Source: Chitinophagales bacterium (GTDB lineage: Bacteria; Bacteroidota; Bacteroidia; Chitinophagales; UBA10324). Taken from it: a stretch of DNA of 64,000 nucleotides. The notes under the pieces are model-generated. The model made no database searches and was not told where the DNA came from. It saw only the letters and a list, made by a program, of their open reading frames with translations. The position numbers were made by a program, and so were the translations under genes. This document shows positions 27,857-35,794 of this stretch, piece by piece; within the stretch, counting starts at the first letter, position 1; the number at the start of each line of letters is the position of its first letter. The stretch spans positions 62,001-126,000 of the forward strand of contig JANWWJ010000027.1 in the NCBI GenBank assembly GCA_025056305.1. Reading direction: 5' to 3'.

Positions 27857-27902
27857 CACAACCTCAATTGCGCAGCGTTCTGTGCAGTTTGACCCTATGG
27901 GC

Positions 27903-27910
27903 TATTTTTG
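27903..27910 (+). promoter_or_regulatory. -7 promoter box TATTTTTG for the second hydrolase gene
   Basis: Exact TAnnTTTG match 20 bases before the ATG at 27931 and 46 bp after the tRNA-Gly end. Confidence 0.5.
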
Positions 27911-27930
27911 ACGTATCCAAACAGCTTTCT

Positions 27931-30123
27931 ATGAGGATATTTCTCCTTACTTCAATCTTAAGTTTTACTCTGTTTTCAGCGCAGAGCGCTATCGTGACCG
28001 GCATCCATGCCGAATACCGGCACGGGCAGGTTTTTGTGACATGGAAGGTCATCCCTAATTACGAGCATAAGTTTTATTACGTCTATAGATATGAAAAGCC
28101 CATCACCAACCAGAACATAGATAGTGCCGAATATCTTGGGCGCAGTGATAAGGAATTTTCCTTCAATTACTTCCTCAATCTAGGCATTACGGGTTCCAAT
28201 ACCAACAAGCTATATTATTGTGTCATAAACAACGATCCATGGGTAGTGTTGGATGCTACCGATGGCCTTTATGTTCATACTTGCAACAAGGATAAGTCAT
28301 ATTACTATGCCGTGACATGCGACAGTACGGTGTTTGGTACACCGAAGGAGAACAAGCGTATTGTTCCGGGAATGAACGCCACTACTATGCCGGTAGCCGA
28401 AAAGGTGGCGCAAATACGTGCATACCTGCAAGTAACCGGCATTCCGTTGCTGAACAATCCAAGTTTAACCTATGATGGCTATGCCTTGTTTCAGGGAAAA
28501 GTCAAAACCCCGTACGTCCCCTACATGGGAAATGAAGGCTGCTTGATTCACAACTGGGGTCTTATCAAAGACACCGACCTGAGCCCCACCAAGAACGCGG
28601 CGACATTCTTTTTCTACGGGGGCGGGGGGAATGCATATGATAATGCCAACGGCACCAACATCGCAAATATGTGGAAAATTTCTATGGAAGATGTGTTGCC
28701 TAATTTTAATTGGGACCCTGTTTCCGGAGAAAACACCAAATGGCTGGGCTATAACGAAAACCTCGACATATACACGCTCAACCAAACCAGCCCACCGCCC
28801 ACTTCTGGCGTCGATCGGATGTACACGGTCTGGCGCGTCAAATGGACTTACGACTGGCTTTTGCGTACCTTCCCGAATGACATTGACACAACGCGCATTG
28901 CCGCCTTTGGCAGCTCTAATGGTTGTACTGCAGCCTTGATCCTTGCCTATCTCTACCCCGATAAGATTTCTGCAGTAGATGTCACCAATGCTAAGATTAA
29001 CCCAGAGTATCTGACCGATGACAATCCCACGTGCAAGTGGAACATCAACGGTACTTCGCGAAACAGGGCTGAAATATTTCTGGGCACGCTTCAGGCTAAC
29101 TTGATGAGCGATGTGCCTCGGTTGGTTGGTACGGGCAATTATCCGCTTTATGAGTTTTCCAACCTCAACAATCTGGTGGCTGATAACAAATACAGCAACA
29201 TTCCTCCCGTGTTTATGACTTCAGGCAAGGCCGACAACGTCACGTGTTGGGAGGAAAAAATCCAATTCTACAACACTGTTAATAAGAACCGTGTAGGAGG
29301 CGCTTATTTCTGGGATGAACGCCAACACAAGGGTGGAGTTAAATACATCAAAGACCGGCCTCTGGAATTACTACTCCGATTCCGAACGGACCTGCCCTTT
29401 CCGGCTTTTTCGCGTTGCTCGCACAACAACAATCCAGGAGATACCGACAACCCGACAGCACCATTCTATGATGGAGATACCATAGGTGCCATAAATGGCA
29501 TTTTGGATTGGGATGACAGCAGCATTGCAGAGACCGACTCAAGCTGGCAGACAAAAATTTTCACTACCCAATTTGAACTCAACAACGGCACATGGTTTCC
29601 GCCGCAACTTCCAGATTACGTCACTGTTGACATCACGCCACGGCGCCTGAAAAAATTCACAAATCTTGCCCCAGGCACCAAACTGTGCATGGAAAACTGG
29701 CAGGATGGAGTATTAATTCAATCGCGTACGGTCAAGTGGACTCCCTCTGCTGACGGCAAGGGGCTTATCACCTTTCGCAAAGCCCGTATCAGCCAGCAGG
29801 GAAATCTCATAAAAATTTTCGTCTGTGACCAACAGCGGAACAATCAGCCAGAGACAGGTCCGGCACCACAGGCTATGTACGCTCTGTATCCCAATCCGGC
29901 AACAGATGTGGTTTTCCTGGAATTGTCGCTGTCCGAACCTACAATGGTGCACGTTACCATTCGGGATGTTGCCGGCAAGCTCATGTTTGTTCAGCAACAA
30001 AAATTGGAGGCCGCAGAAGACCAGACGTTGTCGATACCGGTGCATACCTTGCCTCAGGGTTTGTATCTAGTCACTGTCCATGAGGGCAACCAGCCGTACA
30101 CGTACCGGTTAGTAAAGCAATAG
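27931..30123 (+). CDS. T9SS-exported alpha/beta-hydrolase-like protein (paralog of the protein at 9774-11849)
   Basis: A 730-residue secreted protein with the same layout as its paralog at 9774-11849: signal peptide (MRIFLLTSILSFTLFSAQS supports ATG 27931), fibronectin-like domain (GQVFVTWKVIPNYEHKFYYVY), hydrolase domain, beta domain (VTIDITPRRLKKF-type) and T9SS sorting domain (ALYPNPATDVVFLELS). The nucleophile elbow is a standard GxSxG: Ser329 in AAFGSSNGCTAAL. The candidate acid lies in MTSGKADNVTCWEE and the His in WDERQHKGGVK, at positions matching the paralog. Also shared are PAFSRCSHNNNPGD and DTIGAINGILDWDDS. Substrate unknown. A small T9SS cargo gene follows 50 bp later. Confidence 0.78.
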   Translation: MRIFLLTSILSFTLFSAQSAIVTGIHAEYRHGQVFVTWKVIPNYEHKFYYVYRYEKPITNQNIDSAEYLGRSDKEFSFNYFLNLGITGSNTNKLYYCVINNDPWVVLDATDGLYVHTCNKDKSYYYAVTCDSTVFGTPKENKRIVPGMNATTMPVAEKVAQIRAYLQVTGIPLLNNPSLTYDGYALFQGKVKTPYVPYMGNEGCLIHNWGLIKDTDLSPTKNAATFFFYGGGGNAYDNANGTNIANMWKISMEDVLPNFNWDPVSGENTKWLGYNENLDIYTLNQTSPPPTSGVDRMYTVWRVKWTYDWLLRTFPNDIDTTRIAAFGSSNGCTAALILAYLYPDKISAVDVTNAKINPEYLTDDNPTCKWNINGTSRNRAEIFLGTLQANLMSDVPRLVGTGNYPLYEFSNLNNLVADNKYSNIPPVFMTSGKADNVTCWEEKIQFYNTVNKNRVGGAYFWDERQHKGGVKYIKDRPLELLLRFRTDLPFPAFSRCSHNNNPGDTDNPTAPFYDGDTIGAINGILDWDDSSIAETDSSWQTKIFTTQFELNNGTWFPPQLPDYVTVDITPRRLKKFTNLAPGTKLCMENWQDGVLIQSRTVKWTPSADGKGLITFRKARISQQGNLIKIFVCDQQRNNQPETGPAPQAMYALYPNPATDVVFLELSLSEPTMVHVTIRDVAGKLMFVQQQKLEAAEDQTLSIPVHTLPQGLYLVTVHEGNQPYTYRLVKQ

Positions 30124-30149
30124 CTTAAGGCTTATCAACTTTTTTGCAT

Positions 30150-30173: not shown

Positions 30174-30851
30174 ATGAAACGAATTGTGACAATAACGCTG
30201 TTTCTGTTGGCATGGGTGGGTGTTAATGCACAAGGATTGACCTTAACGCCGTCTCATTTCAACCTTCAGGCTGATGTGTCTGGCTATGTGGACGCACATG
30301 CCACCTTGTTCAACAACAGCAACCTAGATCGGGTAATTACGTGGGTGCGCGTCGTGCATCAGCAGCCGTCAGGCTGGTACACGATGGTATGTGACGATAA
30401 TAACTGTTATGCACCTTCGACCAGCACCATGAATGTAGGCTTGGCAGCAGGTGCCCAGGGCATCCTGAAACTGAGCATTTTTCCCAATGGTGTTCCGGGT
30501 TATGCCGAATACACCGTTCACGCTTACGATGCCACTGACAGTGCCAACGTCAACGCTTCCATGCATGTGATGGTCTCAGCTCTTGATGTCGGTCTTCCCT
30601 CCGTCCGAAACGAAGTAGTTGTCTTATTCCCGAACCCTGCCCGAGATGTGCTCTACATAAACGTTTTGAACAAGACGGTAACCTCTATTGAATTGTACAG
30701 TGTGGTAGGGCAAAAACTCCGCACCATTAAAGTAGTTCCGGGGAATCCCAGCATTGCAGTCCCTGTTGATGATCTGAAAAAAGGAGTGTATTTCGTGCGC
30801 GTTTACAGCCATCAGAGAGAACTGGTGACGCGCATGTTCAGTAAGGAATAG
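30174..30851 (+). CDS. Small secreted Ig-like protein with T9SS sorting domain
   Basis: A 225-residue protein. The signal peptide MKRIVTITLFLLAWVGVNAQ supports ATG 30174 over an upstream codon. One Ig-like beta-sandwich follows (LTLTPSHFNLQADVSGY, VITWVRVVHQQPSGWYTMVC) with a cysteine pair in the motif CDDNNCY, then a T9SS sorting domain (VLFPNPARDVLYINVL to GVYFVRVYSHQR). It has no catalytic motif. It is transcribed from its own -7 box after the second hydrolase and converges on the TlpA-like gene (48 bp between stops). It may be a carbohydrate- or protein-binding surface protein, but I do not recognise a characterised family. Confidence 0.75.
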   Translation: MKRIVTITLFLLAWVGVNAQGLTLTPSHFNLQADVSGYVDAHATLFNNSNLDRVITWVRVVHQQPSGWYTMVCDDNNCYAPSTSTMNVGLAAGAQGILKLSIFPNGVPGYAEYTVHAYDATDSANVNASMHVMVSALDVGLPSVRNEVVVLFPNPARDVLYINVLNKTVTSIELYSVVGQKLRTIKVVPGNPSIAVPVDDLKKGVYFVRVYSHQRELVTRMFSKE

Positions 30852-30899: not shown

Positions 30900-31448
30900 C
30901 TAGTTTTTTTCTGCATTTAATCTCGTGCGCAAAGCCTTAATCTGCCGCTCCAATTCAATCTCATCGCCTTCTAAATAGCCAGCGTGTTGATACACAATGC
31001 GTCCTCCGGGTTCGGCCATCACCGTGAAGGGAACATTCTGAAAACCGAGATGTCTTTTTAACTCACCATTGGGATCCAGCAACACGCGATAGGGCCATCG
31101 CGAACCCTGAACTGTTGGTTTAACCTTGGGCAGATTGCGTGCGTCGTCAACAGAAATGGCAATCAATTCCATATGGTATTGCGCTTTCCATGCCTCATAG
31201 ACTTTAGCTATATTGGTCAATTCTTTTTTACAGGGCACACACCAGGTGGCCCAAAAGTTAAGTACCACGATCTTGTTGCTATCGGCCAGCCTGCTGACGT
31301 CAATCTGATTTCCTTGCAAATCTTTTAAGAGAACGTTAGGAAGTATTTTTTCTTGCGCCCACGCCATGGCTTTGAGGAAAACGAGGCAGCAGATCAACAG
31401 CGGGGAGATCCTTTGAGCCGAGATTTTATGTTCAGAAGAAAAGCGCAT
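30900..31448 (-). CDS. TlpA-like thioredoxin-fold protein, exported
   Basis: A 182-residue thioredoxin-fold protein with an N-terminal hydrophobic export segment (ISPLLICCLVFLKAMAWAQ). The redox motif is WCVPC in VVLNFWATWCVPCKKELTNI, and the cis-proline region is NVPFTVMAEPGG. The frame extends upstream to 31598, overlapping the divergent gene, but ATG at 31448 gives the expected signal sequence and follows a -7 box by 17 bases. Family knowledge: TlpA/ResA-type proteins reduce or handle disulfides outside the cytoplasm. It is divergent from the DUF6029 barrel gene, and an Omp28-like CxxC lipoprotein lies further along, which suggests a shared envelope redox role; that is inference. Confidence 0.87.
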   Translation of the reverse strand: MRFSSEHKISAQRISPLLICCLVFLKAMAWAQEKILPNVLLKDLQGNQIDVSRLADSNKIVVLNFWATWCVPCKKELTNIAKVYEAWKAQYHMELIAISVDDARNLPKVKPTVQGSRWPYRVLLDPNGELKRHLGFQNVPFTVMAEPGGRIVYQHAGYLEGDEIELERQIKALRTRLNAEKN

Positions 31449-31465
31449 ATGCAAAAAGTTCTTTT

Positions 31466-31473
31466 CAAAAGTA
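31466..31473 (-). promoter_or_regulatory. -7 promoter box TACTTTTG for the TlpA-like gene
   Basis: Exact TAnnTTTG match on the minus strand, 17 bases before the ATG at 31448. The opposing box at 31512-31519 serves the divergent gene. Confidence 0.55.
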
Positions 31474-31511
31474 AAACCAAAATCGTGCCCTGAAAGGCTA
31501 AAGCGCTCGGC

Positions 31512-31519
31512 TATATTTG
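31512..31519 (+). promoter_or_regulatory. -7 promoter box TATATTTG for the DUF6029 gene
   Basis: Exact TAnnTTTG match four bases before the ATG at 31524, implying a leaderless transcript. Confidence 0.6.
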
Positions 31520-31523
31520 TCAC

Positions 31524-33116
31524 ATGCCGCTTTTTCGAATGATTGCGCTTCTTATGTGCTGTGCCCTGACATGTGTTCCAATTTGGACGACAGCGCAAAT
31601 CTCACTTTCCGGCGACTTACAAACGGACTTAAAATTGTTCATGCGCGACAGCAGCATCGGTGCGATCAACACGCCTCAGTACGATAATTTGCTCAGCGGC
31701 CTGGATGGCTGGCTTACGTTCATCTTAGCTGCTAAGGGTTTTGACGCGCGGCTTCGGCTTGATGTTTTTCATAACTCAAACCTACATGATCCCAATCAAG
31801 CATTTACCGGTGCCGGCATTGGTTATTTTCATTTGACCAAACAGATAGATCGCTTACAAGTAACGGGGGGCTATTTCTACGACCAGTTTGGAAGTGGCAT
31901 TATCTACCGTGCTTATGAAGACCGCGGGCTTGGCCTGGATTACGCCACGTTCGGACTTCAACTCAAATATCAACTCAATGACTCTTGGCAACTCAAGGCG
32001 ATAGCCGGACAACAGAAAAACCGATTTGGCCGCTATGAGCCGGTATTCAAGGGGCTTAATGCGGACGGAACTGTCGGCTTGGGATCAGGGGTGCAAATAC
32101 AACCTGGGGTGGCCTTTCTGAACCGTACGCTCGATAAAAGCACCATGGATGTTGTGGCCGGATTGATCAACTCTTATGATTTGGAAGATCGGTTTATTCC
32201 AAAATACAATGTGTATGCAACCTCTGCTTACGCCACTGTGCTTGTTGGGCCATTGAGCTGGTATGTAGAACTGGCCGGCAAAACCAAAGAGGCCGTAATG
32301 GGTCCAGAGGGCATCTTGACAAACGTGCCCGGCACCGTAGGTTATACTTCATTGAACTTTTCCCGTCAAGGCTTGGGAGCTACCCTACAATTCAAGCGAA
32401 CGAAAAATTTTGAGTTGCGGGTGTCTCCGCTGGAGACGTTGCTGCAGGGCGTACTCAATTACTTACCTCCGATGTCGAGGCAGAATGCGTTGCGGTTGCC
32501 GGCTCGTTACAGTCCGGCAACGCAATTTTTGGGGGAACAAGCCTGGCAGGCCGATGTGACATGGTCGCCCGTTGAACCCTGGGTGTTTGATATAAATTAT
32601 TCTCATATTAATGATCTAAATGGGCAGAAACTGTGGAGGGAATTTTATGCCCAGGCAGATTTCACTATTTCAGAGCTGGACCATGTTTTGTTTGGCGGGC
32701 AGCGCATTTTTTACAATCAAACCGTCTATCTATCCGAACCTTTACCTGATCAGACGGCTATCACGGGCTTTCTGGAATATACGCGTCGCTTAACCCACCG
32801 ACGCTCCCTGCGCAGTGAGCTGCAATACCTCCACACCAAGCAGGATTATGGTTCGTTCCTCTTCGTGCTGGCAGAGTACAACATAGCGCCCCACTGGTCG
32901 TTCAGTGTTTCGGACATGTATAACGTGCGGCCAAATCCGGAGAAAACAGATAAAAAAGAACACTACTATAATGTTTTTGTCTCTTATACCTCCGGGGCTA
33001 CCCGTCTGGCTTTGGCATTTGCACGCCAGGTTGCCGGCATCAACTGCTCGGGAGGAGTATGCCGTTATGAACCGGCATTCAACGGAATTAAATGTTCCAT
33101 TACGACTGCCTTTTAA
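31524..33116 (+). CDS. DUF6029-family outer-membrane beta-barrel protein
   Basis: A 530-residue protein with a signal peptide (LLMCCALTCVPIWTTAQ) and a long series of amphipathic strands ending in an aromatic residue (KCSITTAF), as in outer-membrane barrels. Sequence such as LQVTGGYFYDQFGSGIIYRAYEDRGLGLD resembles the DUF6029 family of Bacteroidota. Function is unknown. It begins a plus-strand run with an Omp28-like lipoprotein 12 bp downstream, then a Rieske-fold protein and a PhoD-like phosphatase. Family knowledge: DUF6029 and Omp28-type genes are often neighbours. The start codon sits almost on the predicted transcription start. Confidence 0.78.
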   Translation: MPLFRMIALLMCCALTCVPIWTTAQISLSGDLQTDLKLFMRDSSIGAINTPQYDNLLSGLDGWLTFILAAKGFDARLRLDVFHNSNLHDPNQAFTGAGIGYFHLTKQIDRLQVTGGYFYDQFGSGIIYRAYEDRGLGLDYATFGLQLKYQLNDSWQLKAIAGQQKNRFGRYEPVFKGLNADGTVGLGSGVQIQPGVAFLNRTLDKSTMDVVAGLINSYDLEDRFIPKYNVYATSAYATVLVGPLSWYVELAGKTKEAVMGPEGILTNVPGTVGYTSLNFSRQGLGATLQFKRTKNFELRVSPLETLLQGVLNYLPPMSRQNALRLPARYSPATQFLGEQAWQADVTWSPVEPWVFDINYSHINDLNGQKLWREFYAQADFTISELDHVLFGGQRIFYNQTVYLSEPLPDQTAITGFLEYTRRLTHRRSLRSELQYLHTKQDYGSFLFVLAEYNIAPHWSFSVSDMYNVRPNPEKTDKKEHYYNVFVSYTSGATRLALAFARQVAGINCSGGVCRYEPAFNGIKCSITTAF

Positions 33117-33128
33117 TTTAATTTCGAA

Positions 33129-33980
33129 ATGCCCATGCGTTACGTGCTCGCTGGTTTCGTAGCGCTGCTGAGTGGCTGCAGCGAAATCGGTCCGTACATC
33201 AACTTCGAGGAACAGCAGACGGTTGAGGATACCGTTGCCATCGATGAAGGGCAAAGCAGGATAGTTATACTGGAATTTTTTACCGGCGCCAGTTGCCCGA
33301 ATTGCCCGAAAGGCAGAAAAATTGCCGACGATTTGTTGCAGACCTATGCAGGAAAACTGCAAGTTGTAGAAATTCATCAAGGTCCATTAGCCGGACCTGC
33401 TTTACCTGGTGATCCTGACTTGCGCACTGAAGAAGGAGAAGAGTTGGCTGCTTATTTGGGTCCACCTTCGTATTGGCCAGTGGGTGCCATCAATCGGGTT
33501 AAACATGAAGTCAGTCCCGGCAATTGGCAATTGTTGGTAGATCGAAGTCTTTGGCCGTCGTTGGTTGCTGAACAGTCGGGTCGCCCACTCCAGGTAGCCA
33601 TGGGCTGTTCCCTGACTTATGAACCTACGGCGCGCAAACTGTCAGGTACGCTTGGAGTTCGGTTCTTGGAATCCGTAGATATTCCTGTGTACTTGACGGT
33701 ACTGATAATTGAGGATAGCATCGTGAGTGCCCAACTCGACGGAGTCCAACTGATTTCAGATTATGTCCACCGTGATGTATTGCGGGATTTTATCACCCCT
33801 CACACGGGGGTAGCCATAGGGAGCAATAAACAGAAAGGAGAAACATGGTATTGGTCGTTTCGCGATTATGTCATACCCGACGAATGGGATGATCGCCACT
33901 GTCATTTGGTGGCTATGGTTACCGCTTCTGGCAATAGCTACGAAGTTTTTCAGTCGTTACGACAAAAAATCCGGTCATGA
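33129..33980 (+). CDS. Omp28-like lipoprotein with thioredoxin-type CxxC motif
   Basis: A 283-residue protein with a lipoprotein signal peptide (FVALLSGCSEIG, predicted lipidated Cys17). A second ATG at 33135 is an equally good start. The thioredoxin-like domain follows: ILEFFTGASCPNCPKGRKIADDLL contains a CPNC motif near residue 58, then VVEIHQGPLAG and PSYWPVGAINR near the cis-proline position. The C-terminal half is a beta-rich domain (LTVLIIEDSIVSAQLDG) seen in Omp28-related proteins. Probably outer-membrane attached. Its stop codon overlaps the Rieske-like gene start by 4 bp, so the two are translationally coupled. Confidence 0.82.
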   Translation: MPMRYVLAGFVALLSGCSEIGPYINFEEQQTVEDTVAIDEGQSRIVILEFFTGASCPNCPKGRKIADDLLQTYAGKLQVVEIHQGPLAGPALPGDPDLRTEEGEELAAYLGPPSYWPVGAINRVKHEVSPGNWQLLVDRSLWPSLVAEQSGRPLQVAMGCSLTYEPTARKLSGTLGVRFLESVDIPVYLTVLIIEDSIVSAQLDGVQLISDYVHRDVLRDFITPHTGVAIGSNKQKGETWYWSFRDYVIPDEWDDRHCHLVAMVTASGNSYEVFQSLRQKIRS

Positions 33981-34366
33981 GACGGCTGCTTTTAGTCTTA
34001 GTTGTAGTGTGGCTGGGGTTGGGGCTGTGGCAATGCGAGCATGTGGATTCGCAGCAGCGCGTAGATTTTTACATTGATTTAACCGATCCGCAATATCAGG
34101 ATTTATACCTTACGGGCGGCTACGTTTATGTCAACAACATCATCGTTTTCAAGGGGCTGGATCAAAACTATTATGCCCTTTCTCAATATTGCACCAACGA
34201 CGTTTGTGTGGTGCAGTATCAGGTTTCTTTCAATGAGGTGGTATGTACGTGCGATCAATCGCATTTTGACATCTATGGCAATCCCACCTTTGGTCCAGCC
34301 ACTTATCCGTTGTATCGGTATGCCACCAGCTTGCACGGGTCCATGCTGCGTATCTACACGCCATAG
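33977..34366 (+). CDS. Small exported Rieske-fold protein lacking the histidine cluster ligands
   Basis: A 129-residue protein with an N-terminal hydrophobic segment ending at Cys20 (GLGLWQC), which could be a non-standard lipoprotein site. The rest follows a Rieske layout: Cys72 in SQYCTNDVC sits where cluster motif 1 (CxH) should be, and Cys90 in VVCTCDQSHFD where motif 2 (CxxH) should be, followed by GNPTFGPATYPLYRY, which matches the GPA-xx-L segment of Rieske domains. The two histidines that bind the iron are replaced by Asn74 and Asp93, so a classical 2Fe-2S cluster is unlikely. Related small Rieske-like lipoproteins are, from memory, common in Bacteroidota. It overlaps the upstream Omp28-like gene by 4 bp. 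Confidence 0.68.
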   Translation: MRRLLLVLVVVWLGLGLWQCEHVDSQQRVDFYIDLTDPQYQDLYLTGGYVYVNNIIVFKGLDQNYYALSQYCTNDVCVVQYQVSFNEVVCTCDQSHFDIYGNPTFGPATYPLYRYATSLHGSMLRIYTP

Positions 34367-34399
34367 CAGTTTGGGAGTTTTTGATAAGTTCATTTTTTT

Positions 34400-35794
34400 A
34401 TGATAAGAAAATTTTTCTTTCGGGTCATGGTGTGCCGCTCGGCGGCCTGCCTGTTATGGGTTTTGACAACGGTGTGGTGTGCGCTGCAAGTGGCAGCGCA
34501 AGACACGACGCTTCTTATTGCCGGACCCATGTTGGGTTATGTGGAACACCGTGAAGCAGCCCTATGGCTTTTGGTAACTGACAAGGTCCATGAGGTCACC
34601 CTACGCTATTATCCCAAAGACCAACCGCAACAGGCCAAACAGCAAAGACAACGGTTGAGCGGAGAAGATCCTTACCAACCCGTTAAATTCATTTTACCTT
34701 TTCTTCAAATGGGAACTACGTATGATTATGAAATTTGGTTAAACAATCAGATACAGCGTTTTCCGTATCCGTTGCAATTTCAAACCAAAGCGATATGGGA
34801 GCATCGCACCGATCCGCCGCCTTTTGCATTTTTGATGGGCTCGTGCATGTACATCAATGAGCCCGAATCGGATCGGCCGGGGAAGCCCTATGGCCGCGAT
34901 GTTCGGATCCTGGATAGCATGGCTCGCGAAGGGGCACAGCTGATGTTGTGGTTGGGCGACAACATTTATTTACGTGAAGGAGATTGGACCTCACGCAGCG
35001 GTTTCGTCTATCGCTATATGCATACCCGAAAGGTGCGTGCGCTGCAAAGGTTGTTGGCCGCTCAGCCGAATCTTTACATCTGGGATGATCATGACTTTGG
35101 GCCCAACGATGCCAACAGTTCTTTTGTTCTCAAAGAAATTGCCCTTGAAGTATTCAAAGAGTTTACCGCCAATCCCACGTACGGGGAGTCCGAAAATCCC
35201 GGCACCTACACCCGCTACACTTTTTCCGATTGCGAATTTTTTCTTTTAGACGGTCGTTTTTACCGTTCGGCAGAAGATCTTGATTCGCTGGCAGCCGATA
35301 AGCATTACTTAGGCCCGCAGCAGTTTCAATGGCTCAAAAATGCCCTGTTGTACTCCAAAGCTTCCTTTAAGTTCATCGTAAGCGGCACACAGGTGCTCGA
35401 CCCGTATAACCGCTTCGAAAGTGTGCGTCATTACAAACGCGAATTCGATGAATTGATTGACTTTATCGTCAAATACCGCATTAAAGGGGTGGTCTTCTTA
35501 TCGGGCGATCGTCATTATTCGGATGTGATCCGCTGGACCCCACCGGGGGGTTATCCTCTCTACGACATTACCAGCTCAGCCCTTACTTCGGGAAGTTCTC
35601 AGAGTGCAAAAAGCCGTCCGGACCAAGAGCATCCCTATCGGGTAGTGCCCGAAGGTGTTACCGACCAGAACTACGTGAAGATTTCGATAAGCGGCCCCCG
35701 CAAAGATCGCGTAGCAACCATCGAATGTAAAACGGTGGACGGCCGTTTGGCTTGGCGGTTTCAGATCCGCCAAACAGAACTGGACTGGAAATAG
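34400..35794 (+). CDS. PhoD-like metallophosphatase (alkaline phosphatase D family), secreted
   Basis: A 464-residue protein with a long N-terminal export signal ending near LQVAAQ. The metallophosphoesterase core shows the PhoD-type metal ligands in FLMGSCMYINE, LWLGDNIYLREGDW, YIWDDHDFGPNDANS and VVFLSGDRHYSD. A short beta domain (GYVEHREAALWLLV) precedes it, as in the family. Likely a phosphodiesterase or phosphomonoesterase acting in the periplasm or outside the cell. It lies 33 bp after the Rieske-like gene on the same strand and converges on a methyltransferase gene with nine bases between stops. Whether it belongs functionally with the upstream redox-like genes is unclear. Confidence 0.9.
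   Translation: MIRKFFFRVMVCRSAACLLWVLTTVWCALQVAAQDTTLLIAGPMLGYVEHREAALWLLVTDKVHEVTLRYYPKDQPQQAKQQRQRLSGEDPYQPVKFILPFLQMGTTYDYEIWLNNQIQRFPYPLQFQTKAIWEHRTDPPPFAFLMGSCMYINEPESDRPGKPYGRDVRILDSMAREGAQLMLWLGDNIYLREGDWTSRSGFVYRYMHTRKVRALQRLLAAQPNLYIWDDHDFGPNDANSSFVLKEIALEVFKEFTANPTYGESENPGTYTRYTFSDCEFFLLDGRFYRSAEDLDSLAADKHYLGPQQFQWLKNALLYSKASFKFIVSGTQVLDPYNRFESVRHYKREFDELIDFIVKYRIKGVVFLSGDRHYSDVIRWTPPGGYPLYDITSSALTSGSSQSAKSRPDQEHPYRVVPEGVTDQNYVKISISGPRKDRVATIECKTVDGRLAWRFQIRQTELDWK

Follow-up and report, generated by a model that had tools for sequence, protein, structure and literature searches.

What process could join an exported thioredoxin, an outer-membrane β-barrel from a family of unknown function and a second, surface-anchored thioredoxin-fold protein in one small gene cluster? 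The question is raised by a 64,000-nucleotide (nt) stretch of DNA (hereafter the window) whose nearest named relatives are uncultured Chitinophagales, and in which genes for a TlpA-like thioredoxin, a DUF6029 barrel, an Omp28-like lipoprotein, a Rieske-like protein and a PhoD phosphatase lie side by side. A preliminary description had treated these five as one locus and suggested a thiol or redox relay tied to the outer membrane, perhaps serving cysteine-rich cargo of the type IX secretion system (T9SS). Our comparison, which covers more than 200 loci in total, shows that a unit consisting of TlpA, DUF6029 and a surface thioredoxin, usually Omp28, is conserved across Bacteroidota, a conclusion that we regard as close to certain. 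On comparative sequence evidence, we propose that the unit may serve thiol-disulfide exchange at the outer membrane in connection with the T9SS, with a probability of roughly 0.5.

DUF6029 was found by Pfam search in 56 of 198 Bacteroidota genomes, almost always as a single copy per genome. Neighbourhoods were compared by calling open reading frames (ORFs) and iterating profile searches over 50 DUF6029 loci and a further 20 loci, from the family and order to which the window belongs, that bear a Rieske gene. In 49 of the 56 loci a TlpA gene lies upstream of DUF6029 at a distance of no more than 3 kb, on the same strand in 37, where it often overlaps the DUF6029 gene by 4 bp, and divergently, as in the window, in 12. 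An Omp28 gene lies within 3 kb of DUF6029 in 41/56 loci, and divergent TlpA – DUF6029 – Omp28 is the commonest arrangement among 79 Chitinophagales-type loci from named genomes. This gene order is far above chance expectation, and the TlpA–DUF6029 pairing persists across classes at barrel identities of 15–20%. Because the order TlpA–DUF6029–Omp28 is conserved phylum-wide, beyond the source genome, the objection that there might be no conserved neighbourhood fails. From the original list of genes, TlpA, DUF6029 and Omp28 are retained as the unit, and the Rieske-like gene is an addition at the level of the family only. PhoD is ruled out as a member, since its neighbourhood is kept in no loci other than those of the same genus. 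The unit does include the gene at 30174-30851, which lay outside the region first described.

The locus is laid out as follows, in coordinates of the whole 64,000-nt stretch and on the basis of ORF calls and direct reading of the sequence:

30174..30851, plus strand: T9SS protein assigned by profile to the PorA family, with a signal peptide, an immunoglobulin-like (Ig-like) domain with an invariant C-x4-C (CDDNNC) and a Por_Secre_tail sorting domain
30900..31448, minus strand: TlpA-like exported thioredoxin with a WCVPC active site, ATG at 31448, divergent from the barrel gene (Pfam AhpC-TSA, 5.9e-19)
31449..31523, no strand: divergent intergenic region of 75 bp, sequence read directly
31524..33116, plus strand: DUF6029 outer-membrane β-barrel with invariant C508-x4-C513 (PF19494, 4.6e-108)
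33045..33062, plus strand: codons for the C508-SGGV-C513 hairpin with the invariant pair; the loop that holds it joins the final two strands and is predicted to be extracellular
33129..33980, plus strand: Omp28-like lipoprotein with lipobox LLSGC and a thioredoxin-fold N-terminal part with CPNC (C56/C59) and a cis-Pro-like P117 (Pfam Omp28, 4.5e-15)
33977..34366, plus strand: Rieske-like lipoprotein without both histidine ligands, four cysteines kept (PF00355, 3.3e-4, 20.9 bits)
34400..35794, plus strand: PhoD phosphatase (Pfam PhoD, 2.2e-19, 70.3 bits against a cut-off of 27)

All five ORFs of the preliminary description are present and each of its family names is backed by Pfam; its spacings (a 75-bp divergent gap, a 12-bp gap and a 4-bp overlap) are exact, and the CxxC motifs are real, CVPC in TlpA and CPNC in Omp28.

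The barrel has an invariant cysteine pair of its own, absent from that description. The window protein matches PF19494 with 362.6 bits against a cut-off of 27, covering positions 9-538 of the 538 in the profile. An alignment of 55 DUF6029 sequences, 14-75% identical to that of the window, contains ten invariant columns, including C508 and C513 in GINCSGGVCRYEPAF, which are the sole invariant cysteines of the family. The pair occurs in 55/55 aligned sequences, in 79/79 Chitinophagales-type sequences and in 20/20 complete Bacteroidia sequences (two further Bacteroidia matches with truncated or broken ends being left out of the 20), and the mature barrel has on average only about 0.4 other cysteines. 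An AlphaFold model (predicted local distance difference test score 93, predicted template modelling score 0.87) shows about 24 strands, with short turns of 2-5 residues alternating with longer loops, and places the cysteine hairpin (505-516) on the side of the long loops, in the loop that links the final two strands; as this side of an outer-membrane barrel usually lies outside the cell, the modelled hairpin would face outwards. A search of PDB sequences with DUF6029 returned no relative.

The gene that follows the barrel varies in family and in the way its product would be anchored. In the window it encodes an Omp28-like protein that scores 56.3 bits against PF11551 (cut-off 34.9) and 105.2 bits against the NCBIfam model NF033782 (lipoprot_Omp28; cut-off 150), despite alignment over almost the whole length; the score below this second cut-off therefore places it in the Omp28 family, outside that subfamily. 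Invariant in 57 Omp28 lipoproteins are the lipobox C17, C56 and C59 of the CxxC motif, and P117. When the Omp28 profile was aligned with the TlpA profile by hhalign (E 1.7e-5, probability 78%), CxxC fell on CxxC and P117 near or on the P140 region. The position after DUF6029 is occupied by an Omp28 lipoprotein in 70 loci, lipoproteins being counted here by a simple lipobox pattern, by Omp28 with a T9SS tail in 11, by Omp28 that is neither lipoprotein nor T9SS-tailed in 3, and by a T9SS-tailed TlpA-type protein in 11, of which nine have a lipoprotein TlpA as well. Pfam bore out the sorting tail in most proteins tested as expected carriers; the protein of L066 was just below the cut-off and that of L070 had none. 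Replacement of Omp28 by a lipoprotein TlpA together with a T9SS-tailed TlpA was seen in loci L074-L080, L083 and L084 (family f23), and by a T9SS-tailed TlpA only in L081 and L082.

Since Omp28 is swapped for TlpA with the same anchor types, it is the position and not the gene that is conserved. Because the proteins at this position are either lipid-anchored or exported by the T9SS, and come from two families of thioredoxins, we infer that the thioredoxin works at the cell surface. Independent support comes from Paraprevotella clara, whose Omp28-family protein 00502 is brought to the cell surface by the T9SS and, as a difference from the role considered here, is described as a trypsin-recruiting protein (PMC9477747). 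Several Chitinophagales-type loci (L182, L184, L195) also have a lipoprotein-like gene of about 200 amino acids downstream of Omp28.

The upstream thioredoxin is of the TlpA/ResA type: W69, C70, P72 and C73, and the cis-proline P140, are invariant in 26 aligned TlpA sequences. The window protein also matches Redoxin (Pfam) and has a hydrophobic N-terminal signal from the ATG at 31448, and is expected to work in the periplasm. The source genome, which is 99.5% complete, has one DsbD; VKOR and DsbA were searched for there and neither was found, whereas DsbB was not searched. Because DsbD is present and DsbA and VKOR are absent, the thiol supply to TlpA in the periplasm is most likely reducing, judging from gene content. 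VKOR and DsbA were rejected as oxidant partners, both being absent from the source genome and VKOR occurring in 7/56 DUF6029 genomes. DsbA-domain matches show no clear association with DUF6029, and DsbD occurs in all 198 genomes, so that its association with DUF6029 is uninformative. It may be added as an observation that exported proteins with conserved cysteine pairs are encoded in this nearly complete genome without DsbA or VKOR.

The gene at 30174-30851 brings a T9SS protein into the unit. Its ORF opens at a TTG at 30144, and a start at the ATG at 30174 gives MKRIVTITLFLLAWVGVNAQ. The sorting tail is matched by Por_Secre_tail (4.2e-11, Pfam) and TIGR04183 (3.3e-10, NCBIfam); no PorA model of NCBIfam matches the protein, the tail alone being named. 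The N-terminal domain, present in a single copy in the source genome at E 1e-6, is one of a family in which a C-x3/4-C is invariant; the pair is C61/C66 in our domain profile A5. Built without Porphyromonas, this profile matches the N-terminal domain of PorA (PDB 6kjk) at E 0.0021 with both cysteines aligned, and a second profile, made from 77 Bacteroidia relatives and including neither target, recovers the window protein (2.9e-28) as well as the PorA fragment (8.7e-6). An intermediate, L278, gives a direct match to PorA (8.7e-6) and lies within a PorA – Omp28 – TlpA – DUF6029 – Omp28 cluster. On these profile matches, the window protein is a PorA homologue, and for what had been called cysteine-rich T9SS cargo the better reading is a single PorA-like protein in which one pair of cysteines is conserved.

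The two families also tend to occur together. DUF6029 is present in 27 of the 31 genomes of the phylum sample that have the PorA domain, as against 29 of the 167 without it. The two genes lie no more than 7 kb apart in 18 of the 27 genomes that have both, and in Bacteroidia DUF6029 lies within five ORFs in 23/79 best-hit PorA-like loci, where chance would give well under one; these linkage fractions are upper estimates, since the first profile had been built from genes already linked. The domain was detected in 215/395 Bacteroidia genomes, yet PorA had been reported, by BLAST, as restricted to Porphyromonas (PMC7712824); no Porphyromonas genome was recognised among the Bacteroidia loci that we fetched. 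P. gingivalis PorA (PGN_0123/PG2172) resembles the window protein in its signal peptide, Ig-like domain and T9SS tail, in addition to the profile homology and the aligned C-x3/4-C pair, and in strain W83 the Omp28 lipoprotein bears the adjacent locus number, PG2173 (PMC9722745; PMC8754138). In that species PorA is required for normal T9SS gene expression via PorXY-SigP, its partner towards PorY being unknown (PMC7712824), and forms a PorA-PorV-Sov complex (PMC8754138); both the signalling role and the complex are known only for P. gingivalis (PMC7712824, PMC8754138). In the open-licence literature we found no link of PorA to DUF6029, TlpA or cysteine chemistry. Some PorA-like genes away from DUF6029 (L239, L241, L248, L260) are preceded by a recurring gene of about 240-257 amino acids. 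Elsewhere (L302, L307, L273, L247) PorA-like genes stand in tandem, some mixed with Omp28-plus-tail or TlpA genes, which suggests local expansion of the surface set.

Taken together, the conserved gene order, the cysteine pair of the barrel, the T9SS-sorted thioredoxins and the recurring PorA-like protein support a thiol system at the outer membrane. The idea of a thiol or redox system tied to the outer membrane and the T9SS thus has strong comparative support, and the relay itself stands as a proposal only. That thiol chemistry is the business of the unit we consider probable; that the unit acts at the surface is somewhat less so, if still favoured; and the PorA-like protein and the barrel are put forward tentatively as possible clients. 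In the scheme that we propose, TlpA would act from the periplasmic side and set the redox state of cysteines in the barrel, and in the PorA-like protein in transit, ahead of insertion and export or while these take place. At the outer face, the anchored Omp28 thioredoxin would make, break or reshuffle disulfides in both the barrel loop and the PorA-like protein, and a surface complex would thereby be assembled or its redox state set.

Several observations weigh against this scheme. About 30% of the loci (40) have no recognised thioredoxin downstream of the barrel, some of them being contig ends. The PorA-N match is weak by E-value (0.0021) and leans also on the aligned cysteines and the intermediates; most DUF6029 loci have no adjacent PorA-like gene, and for 56/79 best-hit Bacteroidia loci the PorA-like gene lies elsewhere in the genome, with fractions already biased upwards by the origin of A5. 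The extracellular side of the hairpin rests on loop lengths and barrel rules, and the barrel disulfide could be purely structural. SprA, the T9SS channel, is present in all 56 DUF6029 genomes, a link that is confounded by phylogeny.

The possibility of a purely structural disulfide leads to the main rival, which we judge unlikely and nevertheless worth serious consideration. Here the unit would serve barrel biogenesis only: TlpA and Omp28 would be dedicated helpers that form or correct the C508-C513 bond, and the real job of the barrel would be a different one; LptD likewise depends on correct disulfides. Invariant cysteines in a β-hairpin, a thioredoxin gene that touches the barrel gene, often by a 4-bp overlap, and a barrel with almost no other cysteines speak for such a role. 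It is odd, however, for a periplasmic assembly factor that the third protein is repeatedly T9SS-sorted as a finished protein; the C-x4-C hairpin would make a local disulfide, for which an isomerase is rarely needed; and the recurring PorA-like gene is left unexplained. A role of the barrel in envelope transport is considerably less probable. The one open-licence paper found to name DUF6029 treats it as a possible polysaccharide barrel and reports an HHpred likeness to the Wzi barrel (PMC9603273); DUF6029 could accordingly bind or pass a polysaccharide or another compound, with the thioredoxins and the PorA-like protein as accessories; PorA-N resembles the mannose-binding domain of FimH (PMC7712824), and surface polysaccharide anchors T9SS cargo. 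The model nevertheless has about 24 strands against 18 in Wzi, no recurring polysaccharide-export names were noticed beside the unit, where neighbours were without systematic annotation, and transport leaves unexplained why each locus should have two or three CxxC proteins.

The cysteines might instead bind metal: the barrel, the PorA-like protein and Omp28 would hold copper or another soft metal by their cysteine pairs, and TlpA would act as the reductant. Bradyrhizobium TlpA serves copper centres, and the TlpA-type WCVPC, the C-x3/4-C hairpins in two surface proteins and the four cysteines of the Rieske-like protein could be read in the same way. Conserved histidine or methionine ligands are nevertheless missing beside the cysteine pairs and Omp28 retains a thioredoxin-type cis-proline, which makes metal handling improbable. 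Least credible of all is that the neighbours share no process, their order being a matter of inheritance or co-expression and TlpA serving cytochrome maturation or general periplasmic reduction. TlpA-like proteins are indeed common, and PhoD and the Rieske-like gene are lineage-specific neighbours; yet the TlpA-DUF6029 pair survives the deep divergence of the barrel across classes, and the way in which TlpA stands in for Omp28, with the same kinds of anchor, shows conservation of a position.

A thiol-disulfide exchange module at the outer membrane would differ in its partners from known systems. In the known DsbD-TlpA/DsbE/ResA relays, which the window TlpA recalls by its WCxPC site and cis-proline and the genome by its DsbD, the clients at the end are periplasmic or lie in the inner membrane, whereas the conserved partners here are an outer-membrane barrel and surface-anchored thioredoxins. 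LptD is an outer-membrane barrel that depends on DsbA/DsbC and has functionally loaded cysteines served by thioredoxin-fold proteins; it is unrelated to DUF6029, and has long-range disulfides where DUF6029 has a single C-x4-C hairpin and a dedicated adjoining thioredoxin gene. Comparable in setting are the disulfide-tethered T9SS and gliding proteins SprF and PorG with GldK/PorK, which show twin-cysteine motifs on T9SS-relevant outer-membrane barrels and disulfide exchange at the Bacteroidota outer membrane (PMC12635249). Their motif is in a periplasmic C-terminal tail and is bonded to the ring or track protein (PMC12635249), in contrast to the DUF6029 pair, which is in the loop before the last strand, predicted to be extracellular, and is adjoined by thioredoxin genes.

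The remaining genes of the locus are of narrower distribution. The Rieske-like protein scores 20.9 bits against a PF00355 cut-off of 20.3, and the early characterization of it as degenerate is upheld: the canonical CTH...CPCH reads CTN...CTCD, with ligand columns CNCCCD. In the window protein and in L109 both histidines are replaced, by N and D, so that the Rieske ligand pattern CxH...CxxH is lacking and the protein is Rieske-fold-like only. Among 20 relatives the two histidine ligands are kept in nine, both lost in eleven and singly lost in none; the motif cysteines are retained in 10/11 of those that lost them. The tree of these relatives requires a minimum of three state changes, placed on branches with good support, and by this reconstruction ligand loss occurred repeatedly. 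A Tat-like (twin-arginine translocation) N-terminus (R-K/R/A-x-F) is found in 9/9 intact and 4/11 ligand-lost proteins (Fisher p 0.005, uncorrected for descent), the signal having decayed in most of the proteins that lost the ligands (window; L109-L128). The simplest reading is that the window protein would be a cluster-free, Sec-exported, cysteine-bearing domain. It cannot carry a normal [2Fe-2S] cluster because both histidine ligands are lost, and we reject it as an electron carrier. The gene takes fourth place in the unit of the window and of L109-L113, five related loci, and lies elsewhere in the other Rieske loci; it is present in 14/16 genomes of the family, and DUF6029 in 19/20 Rieske-positive genomes. 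The early inclusion of this gene thus holds for some genera of the family (6 linked loci) and not for a conserved member.

In the divergent region 31449-31523, TATATTTG on the plus strand and TACTTTTG on the minus strand, near the start codons, resemble TAnnTTTG, the Bacteroidota −7 element; a sigma-70 promoter scan and a terminator scan of the window sequence gave no excess over shuffles. On the other side of the PorA-like gene, 27868-30123 encodes a large T9SS-sorted protein with a weak α/β-hydrolase match and several cysteines; outside its own genus, no strong homologue of this protein was seen next to the unit.

The families considered here are individually named, and in the literature on Omp28, TlpA, T9SS and DUF6029 the module itself is undescribed, as far as open-licence papers go, so that an earlier description elsewhere is possible. 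The open-licence Bacteroidota literature likewise yielded no thiol-disulfide system that works at the external side of the outer membrane. DUF6029 gains a testable motif, one invariant C-x4-C, and the PorA family is widened from one genus to much of Bacteroidia. The T9SS depends on disulfides, and the enzymes that set them are unnamed in the part of the literature source available (PMC12635249); the locus offers phylum-wide candidates for these enzymes and for the signalling partner of PorA. There is a small chance of something categorically new if the coupling to PorA is real. We regard as distinctly doubtful, if worth stating, a trans-envelope redox circuit in which the DsbD-TlpA pool would be coupled, through the barrel with its outward cysteine pair and the surface thioredoxin, to the disulfide state of a PorA-family surface protein. 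Were it true, T9SS expression or assembly would respond to the redox state outside the cell, and the missing link from PorA to PorY would be the protein with which PorA exchanges disulfides.

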